A DNA stretch of 54,172 nucleotides from Deltaproteobacteria bacterium. GTDB taxonomy: Bacteria; Desulfobacterota; Desulfobaccia; Desulfobaccales; 0-14-0-80-60-11. Where the stretch lies: NCBI GenBank assembly GCA_021813445.1, contig JAKAKP010000040.1:1-54172 (forward strand), read 5' to 3'. The notes beneath the pieces are model-generated. The model made no database searches. It saw only the letters and a program-made list of their open reading frames with translations, and was not told the origin of the DNA. The translations under genes and the position numbers were made by a program. Below are positions 5,696 to 26,067 of this stretch, piece by piece; the first letter of the stretch is position 1, and each line of letters starts with the position of its first letter.

Positions 5696-5763
5696 GGATT
5701 CTCCCTTGGCTGTTTTTACAAGCTGTTGAAAATAGTCCTTGTGCCCGAAAAGGTGCAGTTCTT

Positions 5764-5855
5764 ATCCCCCCCTTTGAAAAAGGGGGGGTAGGGGGGATTT
5801 GTATGCACTCGAAATCCCACTAAATCCCCCGTTTTCAAAGGGGGACTTTAGAACC
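5764..5855. repeat. Dispersed repeat family A (C/G box pair)
   Basis: Two palindromic boxes about 60 bases apart: CCCCCCTTTGAAAAAGGGGGG followed by TAGGGGGGATTT, then AAATCCCCCGTTTTCAAAGGGG with GACTTTAGAACC. The same two-box layout is present at 11201-11290 and 46406-46495, and a single box at 108-137. Each lies between genes. The pattern is direct sequence evidence; the function is unknown. Confidence 0.75.
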
Positions 5856-5968
5856 CCGCTGTGTTTCTATTGACCTTAAATTTCCATTCACCGCTATCTT
5901 TCAAACAACCTATTGGCGCGTAGCCTGCAGGGCGGGAAAGCGAAGCGCATCCCCCCTCTGCCGCGCCC

Positions 5969-8900: not shown

Positions 8901-9211
8901 CCGCCGCCGCCGCCGAAGATCTTGATGAAGCTGACGCCATTTTGATCCAACAAGTCCTTTACATATTTAAAGAATTCTAAATGGCCGCCCTGATAGGAAC
9001 TGACGGCAATGGCGTGCACGCCCTCCTGGATGGCGGTGTAGACGATCTCTTTGGCGGCGCGGTTATGCCCCAGGTGGATGACCTCGGCGCCGGCCCGTTG
9101 CAACAGCCGGCGGAAGACGTTGATGGACGCGTCATGGCCGTCGAACAGGGTGGTGGCGGTAACAAAGCGGACTTTGGCCTGACTGGCTTTCCTGGTTGAT
9201 TCCTTGGGCAT
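5969..9211 (-). CDS. icmF: IcmF: isobutyryl-CoA mutase fused to its G-protein chaperone
   Basis: Adenosylcobalamin-dependent interconversion of isobutyryl-CoA and butyryl-CoA. Residues about 12-140 are the B12-binding domain with DGHDAS at 24-29, where H26 is the lower cobalt ligand. A MeaB-like GTPase follows with P-loop GTGGSGKSS near residue 207, ETPGIGQGD and NKFD. The C-terminal half is the mutase TIM barrel (FDLCAPKTSVSMTVNGPAP). The substrate loop reads KEDQGQNSC, with Gln where methylmalonyl-CoA mutase has Arg, which matches IcmF. 1080 residues is the full family length. The ATG at 9211 is chosen because the frame upstream has no family similarity; GGGAG lies just upstream. It heads the acyl-CoA dehydrogenase-thiolase cluster. 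Confidence 0.95.
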   Translation of the reverse strand: MPKESTRKASQAKVRFVTATTLFDGHDASINVFRRLLQRAGAEVIHLGHNRAAKEIVYTAIQEGVHAIAVSSYQGGHLEFFKYVKDLLDQNGVSFIKIFGGGGGVIVPAEIRELEDYGITKIYSPEDGQKLGLLGIIQDMMEKAGAVKFPQLPQDWPEKVRQRQSYAITQLISLAENNHQAKGRGFARLRKELPVSSKPAPVIGITGTGGSGKSSLEDEFIRRFLSHYPDKSLAIIAIDPTRKKTGGALLGDRIRMNFANPEKVFMRSLATRESASELSLALEDSINILKAAGYDLIIVETPGIGQGDVSITKYVDVAIYVMTAEFGAPSQLEKIDMLDFADLIAINKFDHKNSLDALREVRKQYRRNHNLFGTPDDTLPIIGTVASNFRDPGLNVFFARVLSALKDKGLLDWPIPPAASYSLQESSQSALLPTSRQHYLGEIAHTVRGYHEKTRKAVAQLQKLEAIRTVSRELGLDLAAQAAEAEKEIGPEIRDALAGWQKIRGQYSQEEFEVRTRNEIKRTPLFSESLSGLLIPKIALPNFESLANTLKWLRQEHLPGHFPYTAGVFPFRREGEDPKRQFAGEGPPERTNARFHYLTQDDDAKRLSTAFDSLTLYGEDPAEEPDIFGKIGEAGVSICTLEDMKKLYQGFDLCAPKTSVSMTVNGPAPILLAFFFNTAIDQQLEKFKAENGRDPDPEEAVRIKQLVLAHVRGTVQADILKEDQGQNSCIFSVPFALRLMGDVQQYFIDNKVKNFYSVSISGYHIAEAGANPVSQLAFTLANAFTYVEYYLSRGMAIDDFAKNLSFFFSSGMDPEYNVIIRVARRIWAIAMKYKYGAKAASQRLKCHMQTSGRSLHAQDMQFNDIRTTLQALMALTDNCNSLHTNSYDEAVTTPTEESVRRAMAIQLIITREFGLFKNQNPLQGSFIIEQLTDLVEDAVLKEFEALNRRGGVLGAMESYYQRGKIQDESLYYELKKNTGEYPIIGVNTYLSPDTLGENYCRPPTQLTRATYEEKRAQLDNLHKFQEKHRQKAPAALEALKKTVLGGGNIFAELMEAVKVASLGQITQVLYEVGGKYRRNM

Positions 9212-9267
9212 TCTATAGCTCCCGAAAAAGATGCTGATAACGACTTGCCATCTTACGGCGTGGCCCT

Positions 9268-9440
9268 GTAGGGGGGCACCCATGTGTGCCCCCCGGCACC
9301 CGCAAAAACCCTATGCTCCAGCCCTTAATAATCAATATAATCATAGAATTAAGGCGCAGTGGTATTTGCCGGTGCCGGGGCGGACACGCGGGTCCGCCCC
9401 TACGGAAAAATTGTCATCAGATTGCGACCGGGTATGAGAC
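9268..9440 (+). repeat. Dispersed composite repeat family B, copy 1
   Basis: An element of about 173 bases with two palindromic cores: GTAGGGGGGCACCC...GTGTGCCCCCC at the left and GGGGCGGACACGCGGGTCCG with CCCCTAC at the right, joined by an AT-richer middle (TAATCATAGAATTAAGGCGC) and followed by AAATTGTCATCAGATTGCGA. Copies with the same order lie at 26173-26346 in the same orientation and at 16573-16748 inverted. The rest of this 336-base gap between icmF and the membrane protein gene shows no gene. Confidence 0.8.
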
Positions 9441-9547
9441 CCGAGTGCCGGGGAGGTGCGGCCAAGCTGGTCCCCAGCGGTGATTTGCGGTGGCATCCCG
9501 CCGTCTCCTTCCTCAGTTGTGGTCCCGTGGGTTGCGCGGTCTAACCG

Positions 9548-10852
9548 TCAGTGTTCATGGACATAGAAGGGCCATTTGTGGAAAAACCACTCGTTCCAGA
9601 GGAGCGGGATGATCCACCAGAAGTTCCAGATGAGGGATTCGCCTCCCACGATGCGGCCCGCGGCGTTATGGGCGTGCACCATGTGTTCGACGCCCAGACC
9701 CCAGCCGCCGAAATTGATGTAATAGTAAAAGCTATAGTTCAAAACCATTAAGATGCCGACGCCGATGGTCCTGAACCAGAAATTCCCCCAGGAGTCCACG
9801 TCATGGCCGGGTGCCAGGTCATCGAAATAATGGTGCCAGGCGAGGAAGGGGATCAGGGTGAAGCCCGCGATTTCTGCGGCGTGATACCAGAAAAAGCGCA
9901 TGGGGTTGCCCTTGTCCGTGGCGGGCAGGGCCTTGAGGATTTCCTCCATATTCAGCCAGGCGGGCGCCAGCTTGACGCAGAGCCAGGCCAGGATGTAGCC
10001 CAGGAGGAAGGTCAGGATCAGGGAAATAAAGCCCTTCCAGGGCTGCGGCAGTTTGATAAGCGACCAGGGCTTCATGCGCCAGACATTGGGAGTCATGAAG
10101 AGCACGATGATGGCCCATTCCCACCAGCCGAAGACCCAGTGCACGTGCGGAGTGCCGGCGATGCCGCCCCACCAGGGAAGCCCCAGGGCGTAGGATTTTC
10201 CGAAGAGCACCCCGTAGATCAGGCCCCAGAAAGGCACGATGAGGATGCTGAAGTAAAACATGGTCAGCATGCTGCACCAGCCCAGTTCGGCCAGCCCGGC
10301 TTCGGGCTGTTTCAGATCACTGGGCCGGATGGGCCACTTGCCGAAGAGGATGGTGGTATAGGGATAGCTGAAGAAGCCGATCAAGACGAAGGTCACCACG
10401 GCCCTTTCGCCGAATCTGGCCGCGGGATTGGTCAGGGCCTCCAGCTTCAGGGTACTGGCCACGCCTTCGGGCATCACGGTCTTGCCGGCCGCGGCCAAAG
10501 TTTCCAAATTCAATTGACTGAGGAAGTTGAAGCCTAATCCCAGAATCCGATAAAAAACCACGTGGATGACAAACCACACTAAAACCAGGTTAAAAATAGT
10601 TTCGACGATGCCCCTGGCCGGCTGGGATAATTTATGAAAAGGCCAGTCCCCCATGAACATATGCTGCCAGAGGCCCACCAGGATCATCATGGCCATATAA
10701 ACGGTGAAGGGGTAGGGATGGGAACCCACCGGCCCCCGGGGATCAGTGAAAATGTACCAAATAATCCAGGCTACGAAAAAGAATACGAAAAAAGAGACAA
10801 TACCCGTGACGGGCTGCCCCCAACGCGGCCGCAACGCTACTGGACTTGCCAT
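9548..10852 (-). CDS. His/Trp-rich polytopic membrane protein, unknown function
   Basis: I do not recognise this family. The 434-residue protein has about ten hydrophobic segments, starting near residues 15-35, and is rich in aromatic residues. Histidines cluster in or beside membrane segments: WQHMFMGDWPFHK, HVHWVFGWWEW, YHAAEIAGF, WHHYFDD and EHMVHAHNAAG. Repeated His in such positions can mean metal, heme or proton binding, but no known oxidase signature is visible. The ATG at 10852 follows GGGAGG with five-base spacing. A small gene lies 52 bases upstream in the same direction and they probably share a transcript. Annotation as a transporter would be a guess. Confidence 0.8.
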   Translation of the reverse strand: MASPVALRPRWGQPVTGIVSFFVFFFVAWIIWYIFTDPRGPVGSHPYPFTVYMAMMILVGLWQHMFMGDWPFHKLSQPARGIVETIFNLVLVWFVIHVVFYRILGLGFNFLSQLNLETLAAAGKTVMPEGVASTLKLEALTNPAARFGERAVVTFVLIGFFSYPYTTILFGKWPIRPSDLKQPEAGLAELGWCSMLTMFYFSILIVPFWGLIYGVLFGKSYALGLPWWGGIAGTPHVHWVFGWWEWAIIVLFMTPNVWRMKPWSLIKLPQPWKGFISLILTFLLGYILAWLCVKLAPAWLNMEEILKALPATDKGNPMRFFWYHAAEIAGFTLIPFLAWHHYFDDLAPGHDVDSWGNFWFRTIGVGILMVLNYSFYYYINFGGWGLGVEHMVHAHNAAGRIVGGESLIWNFWWIIPLLWNEWFFHKWPFYVHEH

Positions 10853-10904
10853 ACATTCCTCCCTTTAGATGGCGCTCTGGTAAAGATGCGAGTTCTATTA
10901 CGGC

Positions 10905-11096
10905 CTAGATGCTGTCCATGTGCTCTTCTTGGTATTGGCGTACCGATTCTTCATCCACCAGTTTCCGCATGAATTCCAGGCAGGTCTGGTCGGTGACAAT
11001 TGCCGGCCAAATTGCCGGCAGCAATTCACAGACCACCCGTTTCTTGCCTTCGGCATCCAGAGCCAAGGCCGCGGCTTTGATTTCTTCGAACGTCAT
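10905..11096 (-). CDS. Small hypothetical protein (63 aa)
   Basis: A 63-residue soluble protein, MTFEEIKAAALALD at the start, strongly helical and acidic at the end. A strong ribosome binding site, GGGGAGGG, lies seven bases before the ATG, and the gene sits 52 bases upstream of the membrane protein gene on the same strand. The opening resembles small addiction-type or regulatory proteins (FEEIKAAALALDAEGKKRV), but no toxin partner is adjacent. Function unknown; it may be an accessory of the membrane protein. Confidence 0.6.
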   Translation of the reverse strand: MTFEEIKAAALALDAEGKKRVVCELLPAIWPAIVTDQTCLEFMRKLVDEESVRQYQEEHMDSI

Positions 11097-11200
11097 CCCA
11101 ATCCCTCCCCTCTATCTTGGTCTTGATGCAACAAGTCATTTCAAAACCTGTTTTCGGAGTCAATTTTCAGAAACCAGGATATGGTTGCTGAGGCACGAAT

Positions 11201-11290
11201 TACCCCCCTTTGTAAAAGGGGGCAGGGGGATTTATAAGCGCCCCCAAATCCCCCCAAAATCCCCCTTTTTCAAAGGGGGACTTTAAGAAC
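11201..11290. repeat. Dispersed repeat family A (C/G box pair)
   Basis: Copy of the two-box element: CCCCCCTTTGTAAAAGGGGG with CAGGGGGATTTATAAGCGC, then AAATCCCCCTTTTTCAAAGG with GGGACTTTAAGAACC. It occupies the gap of 332 bases between the small gene and hbd. A CATTTCAAAACCTG stretch at 11140 resembles the terminal repeat of the element at 16354. No gene is seen in the gap. Confidence 0.75.
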
Positions 11291-11428
11291 CTGCTGGTTT
11301 GGGTTTTGGTCTGAATCAATGCCATTCTATTTACGAAAGGCCTCCCGGAGCTCGTGGCAGGTTGCAGGCCCGCTTCCGGCTGCGGCCTTCCCCTTCACGG
11401 TTACTATTTTGTTCTCCTGATCCTATTG

Positions 11429-12301
11429 CTAATTGTATTCGTAGAACCCCCGTCCGGTTTTCCGCCCCAGCCAGCCGGCCTCCACATACCTGCGCAGCAG
11501 CGGACAAGGCCGGTATTTGGAATCGCCAAAACCGTTAAATACGGTCTCCATGATGGCCAGACAGGTATCCAAGCCGATGAGATCGGCCAGGGCCAGAGGA
11601 CCCATGGGGTGATTGGCGCCCAGTTGCATCACCAAATCGATGTTTTCCCGGGTGCCCACTCCCTGATAAAGGCAGTAGACCGCTTCGTTGATCATGGGAA
11701 TGAGGATGCGGTTGATGAGAAACCCCGGATAATCGCTGGCTTCTGCAGGCGTCTTGCCGAATTTGACGCACAGATCCCGGATCACCTCAAAGGTCTCATA
11801 TGAGGTGGTCAGGGCCCGGATCACCTCCACCAACTGCATGACCGGCGCCGGGTTCATGAAGTGCATGCCGATGACCTTGTCGGGCCTCTGGGTCAGGGCG
11901 GCGATGCGGCCGATGGGAATGGATGAGGTGTTGGTCGCCAGGATGGCCGTGGGCCGGCAAATGACGTCCAGCTCCCGAAAAATCTGAAATTTTAGCGCCT
12001 CCTTTTCCGTGGCCGCCTCGATCACCACCTCCGCCGCAGACATATCCCCGAGATTAACGGTGGTCTGGATGCGGCCGAGGGCCGCATCTTTTTTCTCGGG
12101 ATTTAGTTTGCCCTTTTCGATGCCTTTGTCCAGGCTTTTGATGATGGTCCGCAAACCCCGCTGCACCAAGCCCTCATTGATATCGCTCATGATCACCGCC
12201 AGACCGCTCAGCGCCGCCACCTGGGCGATGCCGTTGCCCATCTGGCCGGCGCCCACCACGCCGATGGTCTTTATCTGCATCTTGCCTTTAGTTCCGCTCA
12301 C
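11429..12301 (-). CDS. hbd: 3-hydroxyacyl-CoA (3-hydroxybutyryl-CoA) dehydrogenase
   Basis: NAD(P)-dependent oxidation of 3-hydroxybutyryl-CoA to acetoacetyl-CoA, the step between the crotonase and thiolase encoded 8-10 kb downstream. The Rossmann motif GVVGAGQMGNGIAQVAA, the catalytic histidine in GMHFMNPAPVMQLVEVI, GFLINRIL and the C-terminal GRGFYEYN are present; 290 residues is normal. The start is taken as GTG at 12301 with GGAGGG upstream; an ATG seven codons later (12280) is a possible alternative. An imperfect inverted repeat, TTGCA(GGATG)TGCAA, lies about 70 bases upstream and could be an operator. Confidence 0.94.
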   Translation of the reverse strand: MSGTKGKMQIKTIGVVGAGQMGNGIAQVAALSGLAVIMSDINEGLVQRGLRTIIKSLDKGIEKGKLNPEKKDAALGRIQTTVNLGDMSAAEVVIEAATEKEALKFQIFRELDVICRPTAILATNTSSIPIGRIAALTQRPDKVIGMHFMNPAPVMQLVEVIRALTTSYETFEVIRDLCVKFGKTPAEASDYPGFLINRILIPMINEAVYCLYQGVGTRENIDLVMQLGANHPMGPLALADLIGLDTCLAIMETVFNGFGDSKYRPCPLLRRYVEAGWLGRKTGRGFYEYN

Positions 12302-12650: not shown

Positions 12651-12679
12651 TTGAGGTTGCAGGGGATTTATTTTATAAT
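12651..12679 (+). promoter_or_regulatory. Predicted sigma-70 type promoter of the histidine kinase operon
   Basis: TTGAGG at 12651-12656 and a perfect TATAAT at 12674-12679 are separated by exactly 17 bases. Transcription would start near 12686, leaving a leader of about 43 bases to the ATG at 12729. This rests on sequence match only. Confidence 0.6.
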
Positions 12680-12728
12680 AATTTTATCAGGTTTTTCCCT
12701 GGAAAACCCGGGATTTGAGGGTAACGCC

Positions 12729-14861
12729 ATGGTCCGGAAACTGAGTGCGTCGCATTATCAGCGAGAGTTAAGAACCAAAGAAAGGCTTCTGTCTTCGATT
12801 CACAAGATCAGTAGCCTGTTGACCCGTCCCATATCCCTGGACCAGATTCTGAACTCCATCGTCAAGGAGACCTACCAGGTTTTCGGCCTGACCCGGGTGG
12901 GCATCTTTCTCACCGATAAGGACAAGGGTCTGCTGGAATGCAAATACATTATCGGCTTCAGCCCGGAGGAAACGGAGCGGGCCCTGACCAAACCTTACCG
13001 CCTGGCGGACCACGACTGCCTGGACACCAAAGTGGCCCGTTACGGGAAAACCATCTATTCCCCGGACATGGTGAACGACCCCCGGGCCACCCCCCTGGAC
13101 CTCAAGGTCTGCCAGAACATGAGGCGGCGGGGTACGGTCATCGCACCCCTGAAGATCAAAAAGGACACCATCGGCCTGATCGTCGCGGACCGGCGGGACC
13201 AGGAATTGCGCCTCACCAAGAAGGACATCGATTCCTTCTCCACCTTTGCCAACCAGGCCAGCGTCATCATCGAGAATGCCCGGCTGCAGGAACAGAACCA
13301 GAGGAAGATCCGGCAATTGCTGGCCCTTCAGGAAATCAGCCGCAAAACCAGCTCCACCATCAACCTGCAAAAACTGCTGAATCTCATCAGCGCCAGCGCC
13401 ATGAAGATTACCAAGGCCTCTAGTTGCGCCCTGCTGCTGATGGATGATTCCAAGCAGCACCTGCGGGTCGCCTCCCAAATCGGCTATGAAGAGATGGATG
13501 ACCTGGAAGGTTTCCGGCTGCGAGTGGGGGAGGGCATCGCCGGCTGGGTGGCGCAACACGGGGTGCCTCTGCTGGTGCGCTACGTGAGCCAGGAACCCCG
13601 TTACGTGGAGGTGGTGAAAGAAGTGGAATCGGAACTGGACGTGCCCTTGATCAGCGAAAATAAGGTCCTGGGGGTCCTGAACGTCAACAGCCGCAACCGT
13701 GCGGCCTTTTCCGAGGACGACTTGAAACTGCTGTCGATTTACGCCGGGCACACCGCCAGTCTGATCAAAAACGCCAGGCTTTACGGCCAGGTCATGACCG
13801 AGCGGAACTTCCGGGAAAACATCCTGGAAAGCTCCCCCAACAGCGTCATTGCCATGAACATGAAGAAGGAAATCACCTCCATCAACCGGCAGACGGAGGA
13901 GTTATTCCGCCTGAAACGCAAAAATGTCCTGGGCAAAAAGGTCGCGGATGTCTTTGACACAGAAATAGTCCAGGTGGTGGATCTGGCCATCGATCACGGC
14001 ACGCTGAGCGATTACCAGGAAATCCGCAAAAGCCGCAAAGACGGCAGCCATTTGATCTTGGGCGTCATCTCTTCCTGGCTGCGGGACCATCAGGATAACC
14101 GTATCGGCGTGGTTTTCAGCGTCAGGGACCTGAGCGAAGCCAAGAGGACCGAAGAGATGATCCGGCGGATGGATCGCTTGACCTCCATCGGTCAGCTCTC
14201 CGCGGGCATCGCCCACGAAATCAGGAACCCTCTGGCCAGTATCAGCCTCAATGTGCAGATGCTCTCGAAAAAATTGGCCCTGGACGACGCCAGCAGAAAC
14301 ATCGTCGCCGACACCCTGGAAGGCATCGACCGCATCAAAAGCCTGGTCAAGGGGATGCTGGATTTTGCCAAGCCCTCCACCCCGGCCCTCAAGAGAGGCT
14401 CCATTGCCCGAGTGTTGCGGAATTCCATTTCCTTATTGGATTCCCAAATGCGGAAAAAAAGAGTGGAGGTCAAAGTGGACCTGCCGGAGACCCTCCCCGA
14501 GATCGTCATCGATGAACAACAGATCCAGCAGGTCCTGGTCAATCTTTTGCTCAACGGCCTGGAATCCATGGCCGACGGGGGCAGCATCAGGATCATCGGC
14601 AGACTCGGCAGCCATAACAAAAAACGGCAGCGGCACCTGGCTTTGCAGATTAGCGACACAGGCGAAGGCATACCTGCGGCCAATCTCTCCAAGGTGTTCG
14701 ATCCCTTTTTCACCACCAAGCCGGAAGGCACGGGGCTGGGCCTCTCCATTGTCCATAAAATCCTGGACCAGCACCAGGCCTCCATTGAGGTGGCCAGCCA
14801 GGAGAACCGCGGGACCACCTTTATCCTGAGATTCCCGCTCCAGCCAGCCGGGGGAAGATGA
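12729..14861 (+). CDS. Sensor histidine kinase, GAF-GAF-PAS-HisKA-HATPase
   Basis: Cytoplasmic sensor kinase of 710 residues with no membrane segment. Two GAF domains (about 30-190 and 205-365) precede a PAS domain (about 375-480) and a kinase core. The phospho-acceptor His is residue 496 in SAGIAHEIRNPLASISL; the ATPase has NLLLNGLES (N box), DTGEGI (G1) and FDPFFTTKPEGTGLGL (F/G2). The HEIRNPL box and arrangement are those of NtrB-like kinases. The ATG at 12729 follows GAGGG; residues upstream are not conserved-looking. It overlaps the response regulator by ATGA, so the pair is translationally coupled. The signal is unknown. Confidence 0.95.
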   Translation: MVRKLSASHYQRELRTKERLLSSIHKISSLLTRPISLDQILNSIVKETYQVFGLTRVGIFLTDKDKGLLECKYIIGFSPEETERALTKPYRLADHDCLDTKVARYGKTIYSPDMVNDPRATPLDLKVCQNMRRRGTVIAPLKIKKDTIGLIVADRRDQELRLTKKDIDSFSTFANQASVIIENARLQEQNQRKIRQLLALQEISRKTSSTINLQKLLNLISASAMKITKASSCALLLMDDSKQHLRVASQIGYEEMDDLEGFRLRVGEGIAGWVAQHGVPLLVRYVSQEPRYVEVVKEVESELDVPLISENKVLGVLNVNSRNRAAFSEDDLKLLSIYAGHTASLIKNARLYGQVMTERNFRENILESSPNSVIAMNMKKEITSINRQTEELFRLKRKNVLGKKVADVFDTEIVQVVDLAIDHGTLSDYQEIRKSRKDGSHLILGVISSWLRDHQDNRIGVVFSVRDLSEAKRTEEMIRRMDRLTSIGQLSAGIAHEIRNPLASISLNVQMLSKKLALDDASRNIVADTLEGIDRIKSLVKGMLDFAKPSTPALKRGSIARVLRNSISLLDSQMRKKRVEVKVDLPETLPEIVIDEQQIQQVLVNLLLNGLESMADGGSIRIIGRLGSHNKKRQRHLALQISDTGEGIPAANLSKVFDPFFTTKPEGTGLGLSIVHKILDQHQASIEVASQENRGTTFILRFPLQPAGGR

Positions 14862-16240
14862 TGTACCGCTATAAAATCATGATCGTCGATGACGACAAGC
14901 TCCTCCAGAATTCTCTGAAGAACGTCTTATCTGATAAGTATGACACCATAGTAGTGGGACGGGGCGAGGACGCCATCGAGCTCCTGCGCCGCCGGGCAGT
15001 GGACCTGGTGCTCCTGGATGTCAGGTTGCCCGGTCAGGACGGCATCGAGACCTTGAAACAAATCAAGACCCTGGAGTCCGACCTCCTGGTGATCATGATG
15101 ACCGCTTATGAAGACGTGAAAACCGTTATCACCTCCATGAAGATGGGGGCCTACGATTACCTGGTGAAACCCCTAGAAATCGAGGAACTGGAAATCATCG
15201 TCGAAAAGGCCCTGGATAACCTCAAGCTCAAAAAGGAAGTGGAGGAGCTGCGCAAAAATTACCTCAAGGAATTCAATGTCGGCAATATTATCGGTGAGAG
15301 CCCGGCCATCAAGAAGGCCATCGAGTTCGCCGACAAGGTGGCCAAAAGCTACGACACCACGGTGCTCATTGAAGGGGAGACCGGCGTAGGCAAGGAAGTG
15401 ATCGCCCGGACCATCCAGAGCCGCAGCGCCCGCTTCAATAAGCCTTTCGTGATTATCAACTGCGGGGCCATCAGCAAGGACCTGGTGGAAAGCGAACTCT
15501 TCGGCTACGAACGGGGCACCTTCACCGGCGGCCTCCAGGAAGGCAAAAAGGGCCAGTTGGAAATGGCCGACGGCGGCACCCTGTTTCTGGACGAAATCAG
15601 CGAGCTTCTGCCTGCCTCCCAGGTGAAGCTGCTGCGCTTCCTGGAGGAAAAGGAATTCTTCCCGGTGGGCGGCACGAAGAAGCGCCAGGTGGATATCCGC
15701 ATCATCGCCGCCACCAACAAGAGCCTGCAGCTGGAGTGCCAGGCCGGCCGCTTCCGGGAGGACCTCTATTACCGTCTCAATGTGGCCAAAATCACCATCC
15801 CGCCTTTACGGGAGCGCCAGGTGGACATCCTCCCTCTGGCCCTCTTTTTCATGAACGGTTTCAATGAGAAATTCGGCAAGAATTTTCGCGCCATCTCCCC
15901 CGCGGCCCGGCAGATGCTGCTGGCTTACCCCTGGCGGGGCAACGTCCGGGAACTCCGGAACGCCATCGAACGGGTGGTCCTGATGGAGGAAGATCAGGAA
16001 ATCCTCCCGGCCCACCTGGCCTTTCTGGGCCTGGCGCCGCCGGAAACCAATCTCCAGGGCCAAGCGGCCCCGGGCCTGAAGCTGCCCCCGGGAGGCGTAA
16101 ACCTGGACGAATTGATCAAAGGCCTGATCATGGAGGCCCTGGAGGCCAGCCGCGGCAACCGCACCCGGGCCGCCAAACTGCTGGGCCTCACCCGCCCCAC
16201 CCTGATTTACCGCCTGGAGAAATACGGGATTGAGGTTTAA
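14858..16240 (+). CDS. NtrC-family sigma-54 response regulator
   Basis: Receiver domain with phospho-acceptor D54 (LVLLDVRLPGQDG), the MMTAYED and YLVKPLE switch positions, then a sigma-54 AAA+ domain with Walker A GETGVGKEV, Walker B GGTLFLDEI and the R-finger region YYRLNVAKITIPPLRER. A Fis-type helix-turn-helix (NRTRAAKLLGLTRPTLIYRL) ends the 460-residue protein. The sigma-54 contact loop reads GTFTGG at 220-225 instead of the canonical GAFTGA, an unusual but probably active variant. It starts inside the kinase stop codon. The next plus-strand gene has a sigma-54 promoter, so that gene is the obvious target. Confidence 0.95.
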   Translation: MMYRYKIMIVDDDKLLQNSLKNVLSDKYDTIVVGRGEDAIELLRRRAVDLVLLDVRLPGQDGIETLKQIKTLESDLLVIMMTAYEDVKTVITSMKMGAYDYLVKPLEIEELEIIVEKALDNLKLKKEVEELRKNYLKEFNVGNIIGESPAIKKAIEFADKVAKSYDTTVLIEGETGVGKEVIARTIQSRSARFNKPFVIINCGAISKDLVESELFGYERGTFTGGLQEGKKGQLEMADGGTLFLDEISELLPASQVKLLRFLEEKEFFPVGGTKKRQVDIRIIAATNKSLQLECQAGRFREDLYYRLNVAKITIPPLRERQVDILPLALFFMNGFNEKFGKNFRAISPAARQMLLAYPWRGNVRELRNAIERVVLMEEDQEILPAHLAFLGLAPPETNLQGQAAPGLKLPPGGVNLDELIKGLIMEALEASRGNRTRAAKLLGLTRPTLIYRLEKYGIEV

Positions 16241-16890: not shown

Positions 16891-16906
16891 TGGTATAGCC
16901 CTTGCT
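16891..16906 (+). promoter_or_regulatory. Predicted sigma-54 (-24/-12) promoter of the AbfD-like gene
   Basis: TGGTATAGCCCTTGCT keeps the invariant GG and GC separated by ten bases and has the TTGCT -12 element of the TGGCAC-N5-TTGCW consensus. Transcription would start near 16917, giving a leader of about 40 bases with GAGGAGG before the ATG at 16958. An NtrC-type activator is encoded directly upstream. Confidence 0.65.
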
Positions 16907-16957: not shown

Positions 16958-18430
16958 ATGGCCTTGATGACCCCGGAACAGTTCGAAGCCAGCCTGAAGC
17001 GCTTGAAACCGAAGGTCTTTATGAATGGCAAGCGGGTGCCGGATATCCTGCAAAATAAAAACACCCGCACCGTGGTGGAGGCCAACAAGGCCAGCTATGC
17101 CTGGGCCCTGGACCCCAGGTACCGGGAGATCATGACCTGCTATTCGCCACTGGTGGAGGAGGTGGTGAACCGCTACACCTACGTCAGCGCCAGCATCGAT
17201 GATCTGGTGAAAAAGGCGGAAGCCGGGACCTTCACCGCGGAGATGCTGGGGACCTGCATTTACCGCTGTGTGGGCTATGACGCGTTCCACGCCCTGGCCG
17301 CCACCACCTGGGAGATGGACCGGGACCTGGGCACCGGCTACCGGCCCCGCTTTCTGGAATATCTCAAGATGGTGCAGAGAGAAGACCTGTCCGCGGCCGG
17401 GGCCCTCACCGAACCCCGGGGCAGCCGCAGCAAAAAGATCGTGGACTGGCCCGACCCTTATCTGGCTCTGAAGGTGGTGGAGAAGAACGACCAGGGCATC
17501 GTGGTGCGGGGGGCCAAGATCAACATCAGCGGCGCGTATGCCTCCCATGAACTGGTGGTGCTGCCCCAGGGGGCCCACTCCGAGGCCGAGGCCGATTATG
17601 CCGTGGCCTTTGCCACGCCCACGGACGCCCCGGGGATCACCTATGTCTGCCAATATTCCCCCTATTCCGCGGAGCGGGACCAGGCCGAGGACCCGGAGGA
17701 GCTGGGCAACCCGGTCTTCGGCCAGCGGGAGACCGCGATGGTGATCTTCGACAACGTCTTCGTTCCCTGGGAGCGGGTCTTCCATTGCGGGGAATATCAA
17801 TATTCCGGCAAGATGGTGGCCCGCTTCGCCCGGACCCACCGCATGACCTGCGGCGGCACCTGCAAGGTGGGTTTCATGAACCAGATCATCGGCGCCTGCA
17901 AGTTGATCCAGGAATACAAGGGCCTGGATAAGGTGGCCCACATCAACGAGCAGCTCACCGAGATGGTGGTGCTGCGGGAGACGGGCCGGGCCTGCGGCCA
18001 GGCCGCGGCCCGCCAGGGCAAAGAAGAGCCGCCGGGCTCCGGGGTCTTCCTGCCGGATGAACTCATGGGCAATGTGGCCAAGCTCAATATCTGCGAGGCC
18101 TTTTGGCGGGTCATGGCCCTGGCCGGGGACATCGGCGGCGGCCTGGTGGTCACCATGCCCTCCCTGAAAGAATTAAAAAATCCGGAAGTCAAAGATTTCA
18201 TGGAGGAATTCTACAGCTTCGGCTCGGATGAACCCACGGCCAATATCCTCAAGGTCCATAAGCTCCTGCAGCATTGGACCGCGGGCCAGCACGGCGTGGG
18301 CACCTGGCACGGGGCCGGCCCCCCCGCCACCCAAAGGATCGCCATCCAGCGGACCGTCAATTTTGAGCATGAGAAGGAATTGGTGAAGAGGACTTTGAAT
18401 CTCAGGGAAAAAGAGCAGAAAGAAAAATAG
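16958..18430 (+). CDS. AbfD-like protein (4-hydroxybutyryl-CoA dehydratase / HpaB superfamily)
   Basis: A 490-residue flavoprotein-fold protein related over its full length to 4-hydroxybutyryl-CoA dehydratase, an oxygen-sensitive FAD and [4Fe-4S] enzyme making crotonyl-CoA. Cys100 and Cys104 (TCIYRCVGYDAF), His294 and Cys302 (THRMTCGGTCKVG) match the four cluster ligands, though the His-Cys spacing is one residue longer than in the clostridial enzyme as I remember it. Other catalytic positions differ: Tyr at Q101, Leu at M149, Ser at T190, Cys at Y296, and Gly for E455 (GTWHGAG). So the fold and cluster are well supported, the exact substrate is not. A radical SAM gene follows after 11 bases. 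A sigma-54 promoter lies upstream. Confidence 0.82.
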   Translation: MALMTPEQFEASLKRLKPKVFMNGKRVPDILQNKNTRTVVEANKASYAWALDPRYREIMTCYSPLVEEVVNRYTYVSASIDDLVKKAEAGTFTAEMLGTCIYRCVGYDAFHALAATTWEMDRDLGTGYRPRFLEYLKMVQREDLSAAGALTEPRGSRSKKIVDWPDPYLALKVVEKNDQGIVVRGAKINISGAYASHELVVLPQGAHSEAEADYAVAFATPTDAPGITYVCQYSPYSAERDQAEDPEELGNPVFGQRETAMVIFDNVFVPWERVFHCGEYQYSGKMVARFARTHRMTCGGTCKVGFMNQIIGACKLIQEYKGLDKVAHINEQLTEMVVLRETGRACGQAAARQGKEEPPGSGVFLPDELMGNVAKLNICEAFWRVMALAGDIGGGLVVTMPSLKELKNPEVKDFMEEFYSFGSDEPTANILKVHKLLQHWTAGQHGVGTWHGAGPPATQRIAIQRTVNFEHEKELVKRTLNLREKEQKEK

Positions 18431-18441
18431 AGGTTAAGGTC

Positions 18442-19326
18442 ATGCCGCTCTATTACGAGGAACCCCTGTACCGGCCCCCCAGCGAGGCCGGAAGCCTGCT
18501 GATCCAGGCCACTGTGGGCTGTTCTTTCGCTCATTGCACGTACTGCATTTCCTCAGTCGAGGGTAGATTCGCCATCCGGCCCCTGGCGGATATCCGCCAA
18601 GACCTGGCCGAGGCCCGGCGGCTTTACGGCCCCCGCGTGCCCAAAATCTTTCTCCTGGCCCAAAATGCCCTGGCCATGCCCGCGGCTGATTTGCTGGAGA
18701 TCAGCGCCACGGCCCATGAGCTTTTCCCCGGTTTGAAGCAGATTTCGCTTTACGCCCACCCCCTGGACCTGCTGCAGAAAAGCCGGGCGGAACTCCAGGC
18801 CCTGGTCGCGGCGGGCGTGACCCTGCTTTATGTGGGCCTGGAATCCGGCAATGACGAGGTGTTGCGGCGGGTGAAGAAGCACACTACGGCCGCGAAATCC
18901 ATCCTGGCCTGCCGCCGGGCCCTGGACGCGGGCTTGCGTCTCTCTTGTACGGTGATTATCGGCCTGGGCGGCAGGGAGCTGACCGGGGAACATGCCCGGG
19001 ATACCGGCCAGATGATCGCCGCCATCTCCCCCCAATATCTGGGCTGCCTGACGCTCATGCCCTACCCGGGGAGCGGGATGGACCGCAGCATTACCCAGGG
19101 GACCTTTGAGCCCCTTGCGCCCCCTGAAGTCCTGGAAGAGTTTCGAGTGCTGCTGGAAAATATCGGCCCCCTGGAGCGGACCTGTATCTTCCGGGCCAAC
19201 CACGCGTCCAATTACCTGTCCTTGGCCGGCGATCTGCCAGCCGACCGGGAGCGGCTGCTCCGGGAGATCGCGGCGGCGCAATCCTCCCCGGGCTCTCTCC
19301 GGCCCGAAGCCTGGCGCGCCCTGTAG
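18442..19326 (+). CDS. Radical SAM protein with CX4CX2C motif
   Basis: Radical SAM enzyme of 294 residues. The cluster motif is CSFAHCTYC, that is CX4CX2C rather than the usual CX3CX2C; this variant is known from a subgroup of uncharacterised radical SAM proteins with a GCS(F/H)NxCTFC-like motif. LLYVGLESGNDEVLRRVKK and TVIIGLGG are the beta-strand 4/5 segments of the SAM barrel. No second cluster or B12 domain is evident. It is 11 bases after the AbfD-like gene and must be co-transcribed with it, so it may act on that protein or on the same substrate class. It ends 29 bases from a convergent gene. Confidence 0.85.
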   Translation: MPLYYEEPLYRPPSEAGSLLIQATVGCSFAHCTYCISSVEGRFAIRPLADIRQDLAEARRLYGPRVPKIFLLAQNALAMPAADLLEISATAHELFPGLKQISLYAHPLDLLQKSRAELQALVAAGVTLLYVGLESGNDEVLRRVKKHTTAAKSILACRRALDAGLRLSCTVIIGLGGRELTGEHARDTGQMIAAISPQYLGCLTLMPYPGSGMDRSITQGTFEPLAPPEVLEEFRVLLENIGPLERTCIFRANHASNYLSLAGDLPADRERLLREIAAAQSSPGSLRPEAWRAL

Positions 19327-19355: not shown

Positions 19356-21095
19356 TCACGGCGTTTCGTTCAAAGAGACTACCACCGGTTCCAGGTCACA
19401 GCAGGTCAGCAGATTCAGGCACCCATAGTCTTGGGGAAAATCGAATAATTCGGTCAGGGAGCGGCCCGGGGCCAGGGAGAGTAAAATGCGATTCACCCCT
19501 GCGTGCCCGACGATGAGCAAGTCTCCAGGCGTAGACGCGAGCGCGGCATAAAAGGCCGGCAAGACCCGGTGCGCACAGTCCAGGAAGCTTTCGCCCCCCG
19601 GCGGGCGAAAGTTGATAAAGTCCTTGCCCCTGGCGGCGTACTCTTCAGGATAGCGCTGCTGCACGGCCTCGAAGGCCAGGCCCTCCCAGGCTCCCAGGCT
19701 GATTTCCCGGAACTCCGGCCAGGCCCGGGGCGTAAGTCCATGGGGCGCGGCGATGATGGCGGCCGTCTCCATGGCCCGGCGCAAATCGCTGCCATAGACC
19801 GCGGCCAGCCGCTCCGGCCGCAGCCGTTCCCGCAGGCTTTCCGCCTGTCTATAGCCCTCGGGGCTTAAGGGGACATCCAACTGCCCCAGATAGCGCCGGC
19901 CGGGCCCCGGGGGCTGAATCGCGCCATGCCGCACCAGATATATTGTTTGTGGTCCGGCAGCGGCAGCCGGGTAAAAGCCTTGAGCGTATCGCCGGATGAG
20001 CTCTTCGAGAGAAATCCCCAAAACCCCTTCCAGGCGCTGCTTGATGATCCGGGCCTGCTCCAGCCTCCTGGCGACGGAGGCCATGATCTCCGGTTGCTCC
20101 GCAAATTTCTCGGAGGCAGGCTGGAAGCGCTCCTCCAGGGACACCAGACGGTCCCGGGCCACTAATTTATCGGCCAGGTAGAGGAGCTGTGACTCCTCCA
20201 CCGACGGCGCCAGGGATCTAAGATCCACATGGGTGGCCACCAGACGACCCACGGCGCCATAGCCCAGGTCCTCCAAAATCCTGTCCCCGGTCCGGGCGTG
20301 ATCGGGCTGCCCCTTGGCGAGATCATGCAGGTAGCCCGCGGCGAGGACGAGCGGGATATTAAGGTGCAAGCCGGCACAGTTGAGGTGGACGGCCAATCTG
20401 CCGGCAAGCTCGCCCACCAGGAGACAGTGGCGGCGCAAAGGCGCGGGCAGGCCATGCCGGTTCCAGATGGCCTCACACTCCCGGCGGGTGGGGAGAGCCT
20501 CCCGCAGGCTGTAGGCCCGCAGGCGTTGATAATCCAGGGGGGTATTGCAGTCCAGGAGCACGGCTTCATCCAGGACCTCCAGGTCCAGAGCCACGGCGTC
20601 GTAGCGCTGCAGGAAGGCCCGCAAGCCCCCCTCGCAGTCCGGGGGCAGGTCGCGCACCAAAGCGGTGGCAATGAGGGGCGGATGGCCCCGGCGGCCCAGG
20701 AAGCAGGGATAGGTGATGCTTGCGCCCTGCCGGTTTTGGGCCTGCAGCAGAGCCTTGATGGTGCGGGGCTTCACCAGCGGCAGGTCCACCGGCAGCAGGA
20801 AAAACCCGGCGATCTCCGGCTCCAGGCTGCGCACTCCCGCCTGCACCGAGGAGAACATGCCCTGATCATAACCGGGATTAAAGATAACCCTGACCCCCAG
20901 CTTTGGCAGAAGGGGCCCGATTTCCCCGGCCCGGTGGCCGGTGACCACCCGGAGGTCATCCACCCCGGCGGCACGGAAGCGCCGGACCGCCTCCTCCAGA
21001 AAGATCGATGGTCCCAAAGGTTGCAGGGGCTTGCAGGTCCCCAGCCGGGAGGCATAGCCTGCGGCCAGGATCAGGGCGGCAATGCCGCGGCTCAT
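19356..21095 (-). CDS. Triple fusion: MobA-like nucleotidyltransferase, HD domain, histidine phosphatase
   Basis: 579 residues in three parts. Residues 1-195 are a MobA/MocA-like NTP transferase (LILAAGYASRLGTCKPLQPLG), expected to attach CMP or GMP to molybdopterin. Residues about 225-370 are an HD hydrolase (HCLLVGELAGRLA, YLHDLAKG). Residues about 390-579 are a histidine phosphatase (YLVRHGAIQPPG, SDLRRAMETA, VGHAGVN). It overlaps XdhC by four bases (ATGA) and is the last gene of the molybdenum hydroxylase operon, so a role in maturing the cofactor is likely. What the HD and phosphatase parts hydrolyse is unknown. Confidence 0.9.
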   Translation of the reverse strand: MSRGIAALILAAGYASRLGTCKPLQPLGPSIFLEEAVRRFRAAGVDDLRVVTGHRAGEIGPLLPKLGVRVIFNPGYDQGMFSSVQAGVRSLEPEIAGFFLLPVDLPLVKPRTIKALLQAQNRQGASITYPCFLGRRGHPPLIATALVRDLPPDCEGGLRAFLQRYDAVALDLEVLDEAVLLDCNTPLDYQRLRAYSLREALPTRRECEAIWNRHGLPAPLRRHCLLVGELAGRLAVHLNCAGLHLNIPLVLAAGYLHDLAKGQPDHARTGDRILEDLGYGAVGRLVATHVDLRSLAPSVEESQLLYLADKLVARDRLVSLEERFQPASEKFAEQPEIMASVARRLEQARIIKQRLEGVLGISLEELIRRYAQGFYPAAAAGPQTIYLVRHGAIQPPGPGRRYLGQLDVPLSPEGYRQAESLRERLRPERLAAVYGSDLRRAMETAAIIAAPHGLTPRAWPEFREISLGAWEGLAFEAVQQRYPEEYAARGKDFINFRPPGGESFLDCAHRVLPAFYAALASTPGDLLIVGHAGVNRILLSLAPGRSLTELFDFPQDYGCLNLLTCCDLEPVVVSLNETP

Positions 21096-22439: not shown

Positions 22440-23282
22440 TCACCGGGGCACTGCCAGCAACCGCAGCAGCAGGTTGCCGGCCAGGGCGCGGCGGTAGGCG
22501 GCATCGGCCCGGACATCACTGATGGGAGTGACGCTTTGGCGCACCAGGGCCGCGGCTTGCTGGAGGGTTTCCAGGGTCAGCCTTTTTCCCACCAGGGCTT
22601 CCTCGGCTGCCGGGCAGGTGACGATGGTCGGCCCCACGCTCCCCCAGGCCAGGCGCACTTTCTCCACCAGCCCCGCGGCCGACAGGCGCAGGAGGGCGGC
22701 CAGACTGGCAATGGATACGGCCAGGGCCTGGCGCTGCCCCGCTTTCTCGTAATGTTGGAGGTTGTAGCCCTCGGCCTTAGGCACCCATATTGCGGTCAGC
22801 ACCTCGCCCTTATCGATGCGGGTTTGCCCCGGGCTGACAATAAAATCTTGCAGGGCCATATGTTTCACGCCGTCCCGGCGGCACAGCTCGACTTCCGCAT
22901 CCAGGGCGTAGAGAGGCGGCAGGGTGTCGCCTGCAGGCGAGGCGGTGCAGATGTTGCCGCCGATGGTGCCCATGTTGCGGATGGGCGGGGAGCCGAGGAC
23001 CGCGAGGGCCTGCGCCAGTATGGGCAGACGCTGCTGCACCAGGGCGCTTTCCAGGAGTTGCGCGTGGGTGGCGCAGGCGCCGATGCGAATGCCATCCCCT
23101 TCTGTTTCGATCCCGCGCAGCTCGGCAATCCGTTCGAGACAGATCAGGGCCGGGGGATGGACGGCGGCATTGCGCATTTGCACCAGCAAATCCGTGCCCC
23201 CGGCGTAGATCGCGGCCCCGGGTTCGTCTTGCCAATGGCGCCAGAGTTCGCAAAGAGTGCGGGGTAGAAGCACCTTTTTCAT
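22440..23282 (-). CDS. Molybdenum hydroxylase FAD-binding subunit
   Basis: CoxM/XdhB-type FAD subunit of 280 residues that accepts electrons from the [2Fe-2S] subunit. Flavin-binding signatures AGGTDLLVQMRN and RNMGTIGGNICTASPAGD are complete, followed by the C-terminal CODH-flavoprotein domain. The ATG overlaps the stop of the iron-sulfur subunit gene (ATGA). The substrate of the holoenzyme cannot be told from this subunit. Confidence 0.94.
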   Translation of the reverse strand: MKKVLLPRTLCELWRHWQDEPGAAIYAGGTDLLVQMRNAAVHPPALICLERIAELRGIETEGDGIRIGACATHAQLLESALVQQRLPILAQALAVLGSPPIRNMGTIGGNICTASPAGDTLPPLYALDAEVELCRRDGVKHMALQDFIVSPGQTRIDKGEVLTAIWVPKAEGYNLQHYEKAGQRQALAVSIASLAALLRLSAAGLVEKVRLAWGSVGPTIVTCPAAEEALVGKRLTLETLQQAAALVRQSVTPISDVRADAAYRRALAGNLLLRLLAVPR

Positions 23283-23782
23283 GGAGTGGCGTCCTTGGGT
23301 GCGGTTTCCTCCGGCTTATTTTCCGTTTTCCGGGCCGCAGCCTCCACTGCATCTACGATTTTTACGTAGCCTGTGCAGCGGCAGAGGTTGCCGCTCAGGC
23401 CCGCCCGGATTTCCATCCGGCTGGGGTCGGGGTTCCTTTCCAGGAGATGTGCGGCGGCCAGCACCATGCCGGGGCTGCAGAAGCCGCATTGCACCGCGCC
23501 GCACTCCACAAAGGCCTCCTGGAGGGGATGCAAACCTGTCTCCGTCCCCTGGCGGAGGCCTTCAATGGTAGTGATGCTCCGCCCCTGGAGCTGTGCCGCC
23601 AGCATGAGGCAGGAGAGGCGGCTCTCGCCGTCCACCAGGATGGTGCAGGCCCCGCATTCCCCGGCGCCGCAGCCTTCTTTGGTTCCGGTCAGGCCCAGGT
23701 CCTCCCGGAGCAGGTCCACCACCCGGCGATCCGGCGGGGTATCTAGCTGCATTTCCTTGCCGTTCAAAACAAAGCGGATCAT
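23279..23782 (-). CDS. Molybdenum hydroxylase [2Fe-2S] subunit
   Basis: CoxS/XdhA-type subunit of 167 residues with two [2Fe-2S] clusters. The plant-ferredoxin cluster is bound by CGAGECGAC plus a downstream Cys (SRLSC), the second by CGFCSPGM and CRCTGY. The ATG at 23782 shares its A with the stop codon of the large-subunit gene (TGATG) and follows AGGAG, so it is preferred to the TTG one codon earlier. The acidic, Pro/Lys-rich tail of about 15 residues is extra and probably disordered. Confidence 0.95.
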   Translation of the reverse strand: MIRFVLNGKEMQLDTPPDRRVVDLLREDLGLTGTKEGCGAGECGACTILVDGESRLSCLMLAAQLQGRSITTIEGLRQGTETGLHPLQEAFVECGAVQCGFCSPGMVLAAAHLLERNPDPSRMEIRAGLSGNLCRCTGYVKIVDAVEAAARKTENKPEETAPKDATP

Positions 23783-26067
23783 CAACGTGCTCCTTGACTC
23801 ATCTTGCCCAGCACCCGGTCCGGGGTGAAGGGCGAACGGGTCAGGCGGAGGCCCAGGGCGTCCTCGAGGGCCGCGGCAATAGCCGGTAGCGGCGCATTGG
23901 CCCCCACCTCGCCGATGCCTTTCATGCCGAAGGGGCCGGTGGGTTCCACCGTCTCCACGGCCATGGACTCGATGCCCGGAATATCCCTGGACGTCGGTAA
24001 AATGTAGTTGGTAAGGTTGGGGTTCAGGATTTCCCCCTGATGCAGGAGGACCTGTTCCATGAGCGCGTAGCCGATCCCCTGGGCCACCGCTCCCTGCACC
24101 TGTTGCTCAAAGCCCTGGGGATTGATGACCCGGCCCCCTTCGGTGACGGCCAGGTAGTCCCGGACCTCGATGGTGCCGGTAAGCTCATCCACTTCCACAT
24201 AAACCAGATGAGCCGCGTAGGAAAAGAATACGTGGGGAAAGCCGATGAAGAACTCTTTGCCGGTATCCGGGACATCCTGGGCCACGGGCATGACGAACTG
24301 GCTGACGCTGGACCGGTCCGTTTCCGGGAATAAACCAGCCAGAAACTCCAGGTCCAGGTTCCGCCCCGACGGCAGGTGGCGGACCTTCCCGGGCACCAGG
24401 GCAAACCCCCGTACTTCATCCGTCATCAACACCAGCGCGGCGCGGTGGCAGAGCTTCTCTTTCATTTCCTGGCAGGCCCGGATGAGGGCATTCCCGAAGG
24501 TGTAAGTGGTACGGCTGGCCGAGGAGGAACCGGACGGCAGGCTCCGGGCCGTATCCGGCGGCACCAGTTCCAGGCGGGACGCGTCCTGGCCCAGGATTTC
24601 CCCGGCCATTTGCAGGAACGCGGTGGCGTTGCCCTGGCCCATATCAGGGACACTGTTGTAAATCCGAAACTTGCCTTCTGGAGTGAGTTCCAGCTTGGCG
24701 ATGGCCGAATCCGGCAGCCCCCGGCCGTAGCCCATGGCATTGAAGACCGCGGCCAGGCCGACTCCCCTTTTTTTGAAAGGTCCTGCACCTTGCTTCCATT
24801 TCTCCCGGTCCGTCCAGAGCGCATGGCGTTTTATGGCTTCGAGACATGGGACCAGGCCGGTGGAGTGAACCAGGGTGACGCCGGCGCAATTTTTGTCCCC
24901 CCGCTGCAGGGCGTTGCGCCGCCGGAAATCCAGGGGGTCCAGACCCAGCTTGGACGCGAGGAGATCCATGATCCGCTCGAAGGCAAAGGAAACCTGGCAG
25001 ACGCCGAAGCCGCGCATGGCCCCGCCGATGGGGTTGTTGGTGTAGACGCACCAGCCTTCGATGCAGGTATGCGGCAGCCGGTAGGGGCCGCCCGCGTGTT
25101 CCATGCCCAGCTCCATGATCTCTCCGCCCAGATGGGCGTAGGCCCCCGAATCATAATAGAGGCGGCAATGGAGGGCGTGCAAGGTCCCGTCCGCCTTGGC
25201 GCCCGCGCGATAATACAGGCGCGCAGCATGGCGCTTATACCCGGCAATGAAACTCTCCTCCCGGTCCCACCACATCTTCACGGGCCGTCCGCCCGCGTGC
25301 ATCGCCGCCAGGGCCAGCAGGCACTGCACGGTGGCCCCGTCCTTGCCGCCGAAGCCTCCCCCCAGATAGGGACTGATGACCCGGATGGCCCCCATTTCCA
25401 GCCCCAGGGCGTGGGCGATCTCGAAGCGGTCCCGAAACGGCGCCTGGGTGGAGACGATCATGACGATGCTGCCGTCCGGCTCCTGCCAGGCCAACCCGTT
25501 TTGCGTCTCCAGGAAGCCGTGCTCCTGGAATGGCACCTCGAAGGTCTCTGCCACCACGACGTCGCATTCTTTGAAGGCTTCGTCCGCCTGGCCCTGCTCG
25601 ATTTTTGCCCGAAGCAGCAGGTTGCCGCGCTCATGGAGCTGGGGGGCCCCGGGTTGCAAGGCTTCTTCGGGGTCGAAGACCGCAGGCAGCGGCTCAATTT
25701 CCACCCGGATGCGGGCCAGAGCTTGGGCCAGGACCTCCCGGGTTTCGGCCAGCACCAGGGCCACCGGTTCGCCCCGGTGCCGCACCTTTTCCCCGGCCAG
25801 CACCGGCTGGTCCTTGTGCACGATCCCCTGCCGGTTCGTGCCGGGAACGTCCTTACGGGTGAGGACGGCCACGACTCCCGGCAGGGCCTGGGCCGCGGCC
25901 ACGTCCACCCGGAGGATTCGGCCGTGAGAGACCCCGGCCCTTTTCGCCCCGGCCCAGAGCAGGTTCTCCGGGTAATAGTCCGCGGCGAACTTCTCCTCGC
26001 CCGTGACCTTGGTCCAGGCATCCTGACGCGGCACGGCATAGCCGACTCCAAGCAGTCCTTTTTTCAA
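23782..26067 (-). CDS. Molybdenum hydroxylase large (Mo-binding) subunit
   Basis: Catalytic subunit of a xanthine-dehydrogenase-family hydroxylase, 761 residues. Moco-binding segments are GGGFGGKDG, AMRGFGVCQ, and GMKGIGEVGANAP with the catalytic glutamate. The AYRCSFR loop of aerobic CO dehydrogenase is absent; AMRGFG is XDH-like, so an aldehyde, purine, N-heteroaromatic or aryl-CoA substrate is possible. It begins at a TTG (26067) supported by GGAGGGG upstream and by the family N-terminus. It is first of a five-gene operon ending in XdhC and the cofactor triple fusion. Confidence 0.93.
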   Translation of the reverse strand: MKKGLLGVGYAVPRQDAWTKVTGEEKFAADYYPENLLWAGAKRAGVSHGRILRVDVAAAQALPGVVAVLTRKDVPGTNRQGIVHKDQPVLAGEKVRHRGEPVALVLAETREVLAQALARIRVEIEPLPAVFDPEEALQPGAPQLHERGNLLLRAKIEQGQADEAFKECDVVVAETFEVPFQEHGFLETQNGLAWQEPDGSIVMIVSTQAPFRDRFEIAHALGLEMGAIRVISPYLGGGFGGKDGATVQCLLALAAMHAGGRPVKMWWDREESFIAGYKRHAARLYYRAGAKADGTLHALHCRLYYDSGAYAHLGGEIMELGMEHAGGPYRLPHTCIEGWCVYTNNPIGGAMRGFGVCQVSFAFERIMDLLASKLGLDPLDFRRRNALQRGDKNCAGVTLVHSTGLVPCLEAIKRHALWTDREKWKQGAGPFKKRGVGLAAVFNAMGYGRGLPDSAIAKLELTPEGKFRIYNSVPDMGQGNATAFLQMAGEILGQDASRLELVPPDTARSLPSGSSSASRTTYTFGNALIRACQEMKEKLCHRAALVLMTDEVRGFALVPGKVRHLPSGRNLDLEFLAGLFPETDRSSVSQFVMPVAQDVPDTGKEFFIGFPHVFFSYAAHLVYVEVDELTGTIEVRDYLAVTEGGRVINPQGFEQQVQGAVAQGIGYALMEQVLLHQGEILNPNLTNYILPTSRDIPGIESMAVETVEPTGPFGMKGIGEVGANAPLPAIAAALEDALGLRLTRSPFTPDRVLGKMSQGAR

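Follow-up and report, generated by a model that had tools for sequence, protein, structure and literature searches.

An AbfD-like protein from a deltaproteobacterium belongs to a distinct clade with a different active site

The locus

The window analysed here, a stretch of 54,172 nt from a Deltaproteobacteria bacterium (contig JAKAKP010000040.1, assembly GCA_021813445.1), carries a gene for a protein that resembles AbfD, the 4-hydroxybutyryl-CoA (4HB-CoA) dehydratase known from clostridia. This gene is an ORF on the forward strand (16958-18430, +), which starts with ATG and encodes 490 residues. An earlier note on this DNA, made from its letters, had pointed at 17255-18330, a span that corresponds to about residues 100-458 of the protein. 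A gene for a radical SAM protein (18442-19326, +; Pfam Radical_SAM) starts 11 nt after the stop codon, an order that is kept in a 92% identical relative (L054), and the two genes are likely to be co-transcribed. Upstream lie a GAF/PAS-type sensor histidine kinase and an NtrC-type response regulator (12651-16240, +), with domains read from the sequence and an order that is the same in L054, for which we can only infer a link to the AbfD-like gene. A scan for the sigma-54 promoters expected of an NtrC-type regulator gave no excess over chance, the one sigma-54-like site found (16891-16906, two mismatches) not being evidence of a promoter, and no Rfam elements were detected in the window.

On the opposite strand, about 5-12 kb upstream of the AbfD-like gene, are genes for (i) an acyl-CoA dehydrogenase (4538-5695, -; NCBIfam matches below equivalog cut-offs), (ii) IcmF, a fused isobutyryl-CoA mutase/GTPase (5969-9283, -; NCBIfam NF045497, 1730 bits for a cut-off of 1500), which lies 7.7 kb away, and (iii) a 3-hydroxybutyryl-CoA dehydrogenase (11429-12301, -; NCBIfam PRK05808.1, 441 bits for a cut-off of 408). 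The crotonyl-CoA chemistry noticed earlier in the vicinity is thus real, and wider than had been claimed. This cluster (4538-12301, -), which also encodes a probable membrane protein of 434 aa that matches nothing in Pfam or NCBIfam, likely represents an isobutyrate/butyrate route with a membrane partner. Elsewhere in the genome there is one AbfT-like CoA-transferase (41% identity).

Two other features of the window deserve mention. Downstream (19356-21095, -) is a gene for a 579-aa fusion of a MobA-like nucleotidyltransferase, an HD domain and a ribazole-phosphatase-like histidine phosphatase, which adjoins genes for XdhC and a three-subunit molybdenum hydroxylase (22440-26067). Further on (51847-53241, -) is a beta-CASP metallo-beta-lactamase nuclease resembling both Cas14 of type VII CRISPR systems and aCPSF1, although it scores below both curated cut-offs.

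Family and fold

The AbfD-like protein is covered over its full length by the Pfam domains HpaB_N (2e-79) and HpaB (1e-54), and its closest sequences in the PDB are clostridial AbfD (1u8v_A, E-value 9e-103) and the 4HB-CoA dehydratase of Nitrosopumilus maritimus (6vjr_A, 9e-91). Its AlphaFold2 model, built with 35 sequences (pLDDT 91.7, pTM 0.90), retrieves the same two structures first in Foldseek, 1u8v (TM 0.94, rmsd 1.6) and then 6vjr (TM 0.92-0.94), ahead of HpaB-type enzymes (TM 0.76-0.88). It therefore has both the overall fold and the full-length homology expected of a canonical AbfD, and it belongs to the AbfD family by fold and by sequence, with 38% identity to the clostridial enzyme and 34% to the archaeal one.

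This ranking bears directly on whether the protein could be an oxygen-dependent flavin monooxygenase of the HpaB type, as its Pfam name would allow. Such enzymes (2YYG, 6QYH, 3HWC TftD, 6JHM HadA) do share its acyl-CoA-dehydrogenase-like superfamily fold and its Pfam families (PF11794/PF03241). However, they are more remote in structure and far behind in the PDB sequence search (1e-39 for 2yyg, the others weaker), the NCBIfam equivalog cut-offs for HpaB are missed by a wide margin (158 vs 480 bits for TIGR02309, 67 vs 885 for TIGR02310), the cluster cysteines of the window protein are absent from HpaB (2YYG has none of the cluster ligands) and the lineages in which it occurs are regarded as anaerobic. 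We rejected this assignment on the PDB, NCBIfam and Foldseek results, and consider it scarcely credible.

The active site

In a MAFFT alignment of 132 sequences, numbered on 1U8V, all four [4Fe-4S] ligands of AbfD are found in the window protein, as had been proposed: C99, C103, H292 and C299 correspond to C100, C104, H294 and C302. The same holds for the archaeal enzyme. Also kept are E257 (E258), K300 (K303), T150 and the FAD-loop motif. Around this conserved core, however, several residues are replaced, namely Q101 (Y102), M149 (L150), T190 (S191) and Y296 (C298), all four as the earlier note had read them, and R232 and R238 have become Tyr and Glu. The first cluster motif (17249-17269, +) accordingly reads G98-T-C100-I-Y102-R-C104 instead of C99-F-Q101-R-C103, while the second (17837-17866, +) reads H294-R-M-T-C298-G-G-T-C302-K303 instead of H292-R-Q-S-Y296-G-G-C299-K300, and is one residue longer.

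The fifth replacement on the original list, Gly at E455, did not stand, since E455 falls within a 4-residue deletion (GYRTESMHGAG vs GVG----TWHGAG), and the glycine is a matter of alignment choice. The loop concerned (residues 443-454; 18284-18319, +) reads HGVG----TWHGAG against SAVGYRTESMHGAG in AbfD, has no Asp or Glu at all, and is a site of low confidence in the model (pLDDT < 50 for residues 446-450). Thus, of the trio Q101, Y296 and E455, all present in both 1U8V and 6VJR, the window protein has none, but Y102, C298 and a deletion instead, and the alignment that was to decide whether the listed catalytic residues are conserved says that they are not.

Not all differences weigh the same. 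The change at T190 and that at M149 are weak evidence of altered function, because Ser keeps the hydroxyl and position 149 varies (L/M/I/V) within the clade to which the protein belongs. The longer His-Cys spacing, another feature pointed out earlier, is genuine (8 vs 7 in 1U8V), but as a stand-alone sign of lost function it had to be discarded, the solved archaeal enzyme 6VJR having a spacing of 6. The loss of Y296 and E455 is another matter, since Y296, deprotonated by E455, is reportedly the residue that reduces FAD in the clostridial enzyme, with E257 protonating via T190, as Zhang and colleagues are said to have proposed in 2015; activity was reportedly not measurable in their E257Q, E455Q and Y296W mutants and below 1% in Y296F and T190V.

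In the AlphaFold2 model, the second cluster motif sits in one continuous helix (residues 280-320). H294, C298 and C302, at i, i+4 and i+8, would therefore share roughly one helix face, and this suggests that C298 may be placed for contact with the cluster or the substrate.

A distinct clade

Relatives were gathered by a genome scan and from 395 sampled genomes of the phylum. Y102, C298, the absence of E455 and a spacing of 8 occur together in 82/82 distinct full-length members (46-92% identical to the window protein) of what we call the Y-clade, and in 0/37 canonical AbfD sequences, in which Q101, Y296 and E455 are invariant and the spacing is 6-7. Judging from these counts, the pattern is not a product of chance. 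It extends to sites that were not used in defining the clade (R232 to Y, R238 to E, E441 to Q, inserts T259 and G360), and M457 is W/Y throughout. The equivalents of E257 and K300 are also present in 82/82 members.

Because the groups had been named by their active-site residues, the tree was built with the columns around these residues removed. The Y-clade is still recovered (100/100 support), while 1U8V, 6VJR and a Cetobacterium gene that adjoins genes for 4-hydroxybutyrate dehydrogenase and a CoA-transferase share another clade (96/94). Forcing the window protein and its two nearest relatives into the clade of solved dehydratases is 461 log-likelihood units worse and is rejected (p-AU 1.9e-14), although the test is coarse, the three being taken out of their own clade at the same time. 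The window protein thus lies outside the solved dehydratases, in a family tree that the earlier note had named as a check on its own suggestion, and there is good support for assigning it to an AbfD-type clade of its own, in which the active site differs.

The apparent hosts of the Y-clade belong for the most part to the Desulfobacterota (Desulfomonile, Syntrophaceae, Desulfobacteraceae MAGs), to which eleven loci from Chloroflexota/Dehalococcoidia and a single Bacillota MAG must be added. In the order of the window, 3/29 genomes have an AbfD family member, all three of the Y-clade type and one with an extra diverged paralogue. The window genome (4.18 Mb, 97% complete) has the protein described here as its sole family member. 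At least four sampled genomes have both Y-clade and canonical AbfDs (L007/L144; L008/L145; L005/L157/L163; L028/L135), and this co-occurrence argues against redundancy. No biochemically studied Y-clade member was found, and the literature searched, where most subscription journals were absent, contained no account of the clade or of its signature residues.

Taken together, the Y-clade no longer has the electron-donor Tyr or its base, E257 and the hydroxyl at T190 persist, and two invariant residues are new, a Tyr at 101 and a Cys at 296. These sequences are most simply read as an initiation site that has been rebuilt, not one that has decayed. A rival reading is that radical dehydration has been lost and that the protein is an acid-base delta-3/delta-2 enoyl-CoA isomerase, similar to vinylacetyl-CoA isomerase. 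This would be in keeping with the disappearance of the proposed initiation pair from a site where His294, E258 and K303 are still present, and AbfD itself has isomerase activity, to go by the title of Scherf and Buckel (1993) as given in PMC7078158. We nevertheless find it distinctly unlikely, since the strict conservation of the cluster ligands, Y102 and C298 in 82/82 members suggests a working redox site and not a decaying one, and an isomerase has no obvious need for the mutase or ligase partners described below.

Gene neighbourhoods

The genes that surround Y-clade members differ from those around canonical AbfD. Within 6 kb, a 4HB CoA-transferase (AbfT) is found near 0/64 Y-clade genes vs 6/35 canonical ones. 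Conversely, B12-dependent acyl-CoA mutases (7/64 vs 0/35), PaaK-like ligases (5/64 vs 0/35) and MtaA-like methyltransferases (10/64 vs 1/35) are found on the Y-clade side. At least one of these last three families is near 17/64 Y-clade genes vs 1/35 canonical ones (L067) when raw loci are counted (p 0.003), and near 5/14 vs 1/21 when near-copies are removed (p 0.03), single families not being significant, so that the contrast is suggestive only. There is no single conserved operon partner, the neighbours that were considered (TetR, ComF, SAM_HAT, ProRS, LysM, mutase, PaaK and MtaA) all varying, and many Y-clade genes have no metabolic neighbour and sit beside housekeeping genes (ComF, ProRS).

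The mutases are found in Syntrophaceae-type loci (L104, L105, L109, L112, L143) and in L046 and L048, and the PaaK-like ligases in L046, L048, L052, L053 and L140. At substrate-selective positions, the mutases of the Syntrophaceae-type loci and the IcmF of the window have F/A/Q, which is the pattern of isobutyryl-CoA mutase and differs from methylmalonyl-CoA mutase with its R, and those of L046 and L048 have I/V/S.

The methyltransferases raise another scenario, a role in methyl-group or corrinoid metabolism in which a CoA ester is perhaps not used at all. About a dozen loci (50% to 81% relatives) do have an MtaA-like gene on or close to the downstream side, MtrH-like/corrinoid genes occur in a few, and with R232 and R238 replaced, contacts with the CoA phosphate may have been lost. 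Other loci, however, pair the Y-clade gene with acyl-CoA mutases and acyl-CoA ligases, and no MtaA-like match was found in the window genome (in a search run without a positive control), which leads us to regard this scenario as very unlikely.

A more serious contender is that the protein is a true 4HB-CoA dehydratase, in which Tyr102 and Cys298 stand in for Tyr296 and Glu455 in the same reaction. The cluster ligands, E257 and K300 are all kept, and the protein is the only family member in a genome that also encodes a 3-hydroxybutyryl-CoA dehydrogenase and the AbfT-like CoA-transferase. Against this speak the absence of a 4HB CoA-transferase beside Y-clade genes, the genomes that keep both Y-clade and canonical types, the replacement of the arginines R232 and R238 of the GRQS region and the near-abolition of clostridial activity that Y296F/W and E455Q are said to cause. 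On these grounds we deem it unlikely.

Several loci have other recurrent features. In L062, L066 and L114, a B12-binding radical SAM protein follows the Y-clade gene directly (-1 nt), the one in L114 being above the TIGR03975 cut-off (RiPP maturation radical SAM C-methyltransferase), and the radical SAM protein in the window occupies the same place but is shorter. In L102 (9659-9979, +) and 11 other Syntrophaceae-type loci, a conserved protein of ~107 aa with no known Pfam family is encoded immediately upstream of the Y-clade gene. Most of those loci whose sequence extends far enough also encode a CoA-disulfide-reductase-like flavoprotein and a C_GCAxxG_C_C redox protein ahead of it.

A possible mechanism

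On balance, and by a narrow preference, we picture the window protein as an FAD/[4Fe-4S] acyl-CoA radical dehydratase/isomerase of a distinct paralogous AbfD clade, which would initiate its reaction other than through Tyr296/Glu455 and act on a short-chain substrate other than 4HB-CoA. By analogy with the clostridial enzyme, for which Zhang et al. (2015), as summarised in PMC13101534, propose that substrate binding leads to one-electron transfer to FAD and that the resulting FADH radical starts dehydration via an allylic ketyl radical, FAD and the [4Fe-4S] cluster would still be bound, and substrate-induced electron transfer to FAD would remain the mode of action. Initiation would have to take another route because Tyr296/Glu455, the proposed clostridial initiating pair, is gone, and the simplest initiator would be the invariant Tyr102 on the C-x-Y-x-C loop and/or the invariant Cys298. 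The latter, exactly at the position of Y296 and roughly a helical turn away from H294 as well as from C302, could even take over a cluster position as a ligand instead of His294, which would free His294 as a base.

As for the substrate, a short-chain acyl-CoA that differs from 4HB-CoA and may be branched is probable, because B12 acyl-CoA mutases and PaaK-like ligases, and never a 4HB CoA-transferase, are among the metabolic partners where there are any. The earlier suggestion of a different substrate or reaction hence survives in part: a different substrate is plausible, in view of the distinct clade, altered residues and differing contexts, but the same reaction with another initiator is equally compatible with what is kept (cluster ligands, E257, K300 and the hydroxyl at T190). 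A bolder version, which we put forward as tentative and rather doubtful, is that Y-clade proteins are anaerobic radical enzymes with another way of starting the radical, through Tyr102 and Cys298 (as redox thiol or alternative ligand), and that the step they catalyse, so far undescribed, would act on a branched C4/C5 acyl-CoA in B12-mutase pathways.

AbfD is a textbook example of an enzyme whose radical is induced by the substrate, with no need for B12, SAM or ATP-driven electron transfer. The Y-clade is large and natural, its cluster/FAD scaffold is kept while the proposed initiation pair is uniformly replaced, and it offers a direct natural test of how AbfD is proposed to initiate its reaction. 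There are also practical implications, since '4-hydroxybutyryl-CoA dehydratase' annotations in anaerobic metagenomes, taken as markers of CO2 fixation via 4-hydroxybutyrate, can include a different enzyme, and Y-clade members can be recognised by C-x-Y-x-C, HRMxCGGxCK and T(W/Y)(H/Q)G without a preceding E.

Other AbfD-like groups

It has already been recognised that sulfate reducers and archaea can have several AbfD-like paralogues to which no function is assigned, for example three in Archaeoglobus fulgidus and five in Desulfatibacillum alkenivorans (PMC3949148). Our sampling contains two further variants. One, from Desulfobacterota and Dehalococcoidia (L067, 259-1695, +; L092, 472-1941, -; L149, 2940-6351, -), is 30-34% identical to the window protein and keeps CxQxC and HRxSY..C but has D, G or A in place of E455. 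The other (L120, L121, L123 and L030, 3084-4445, -) has a CTGxRC or CTGALC motif and keeps three Cys, the His292 ligand being replaced by E or Y.
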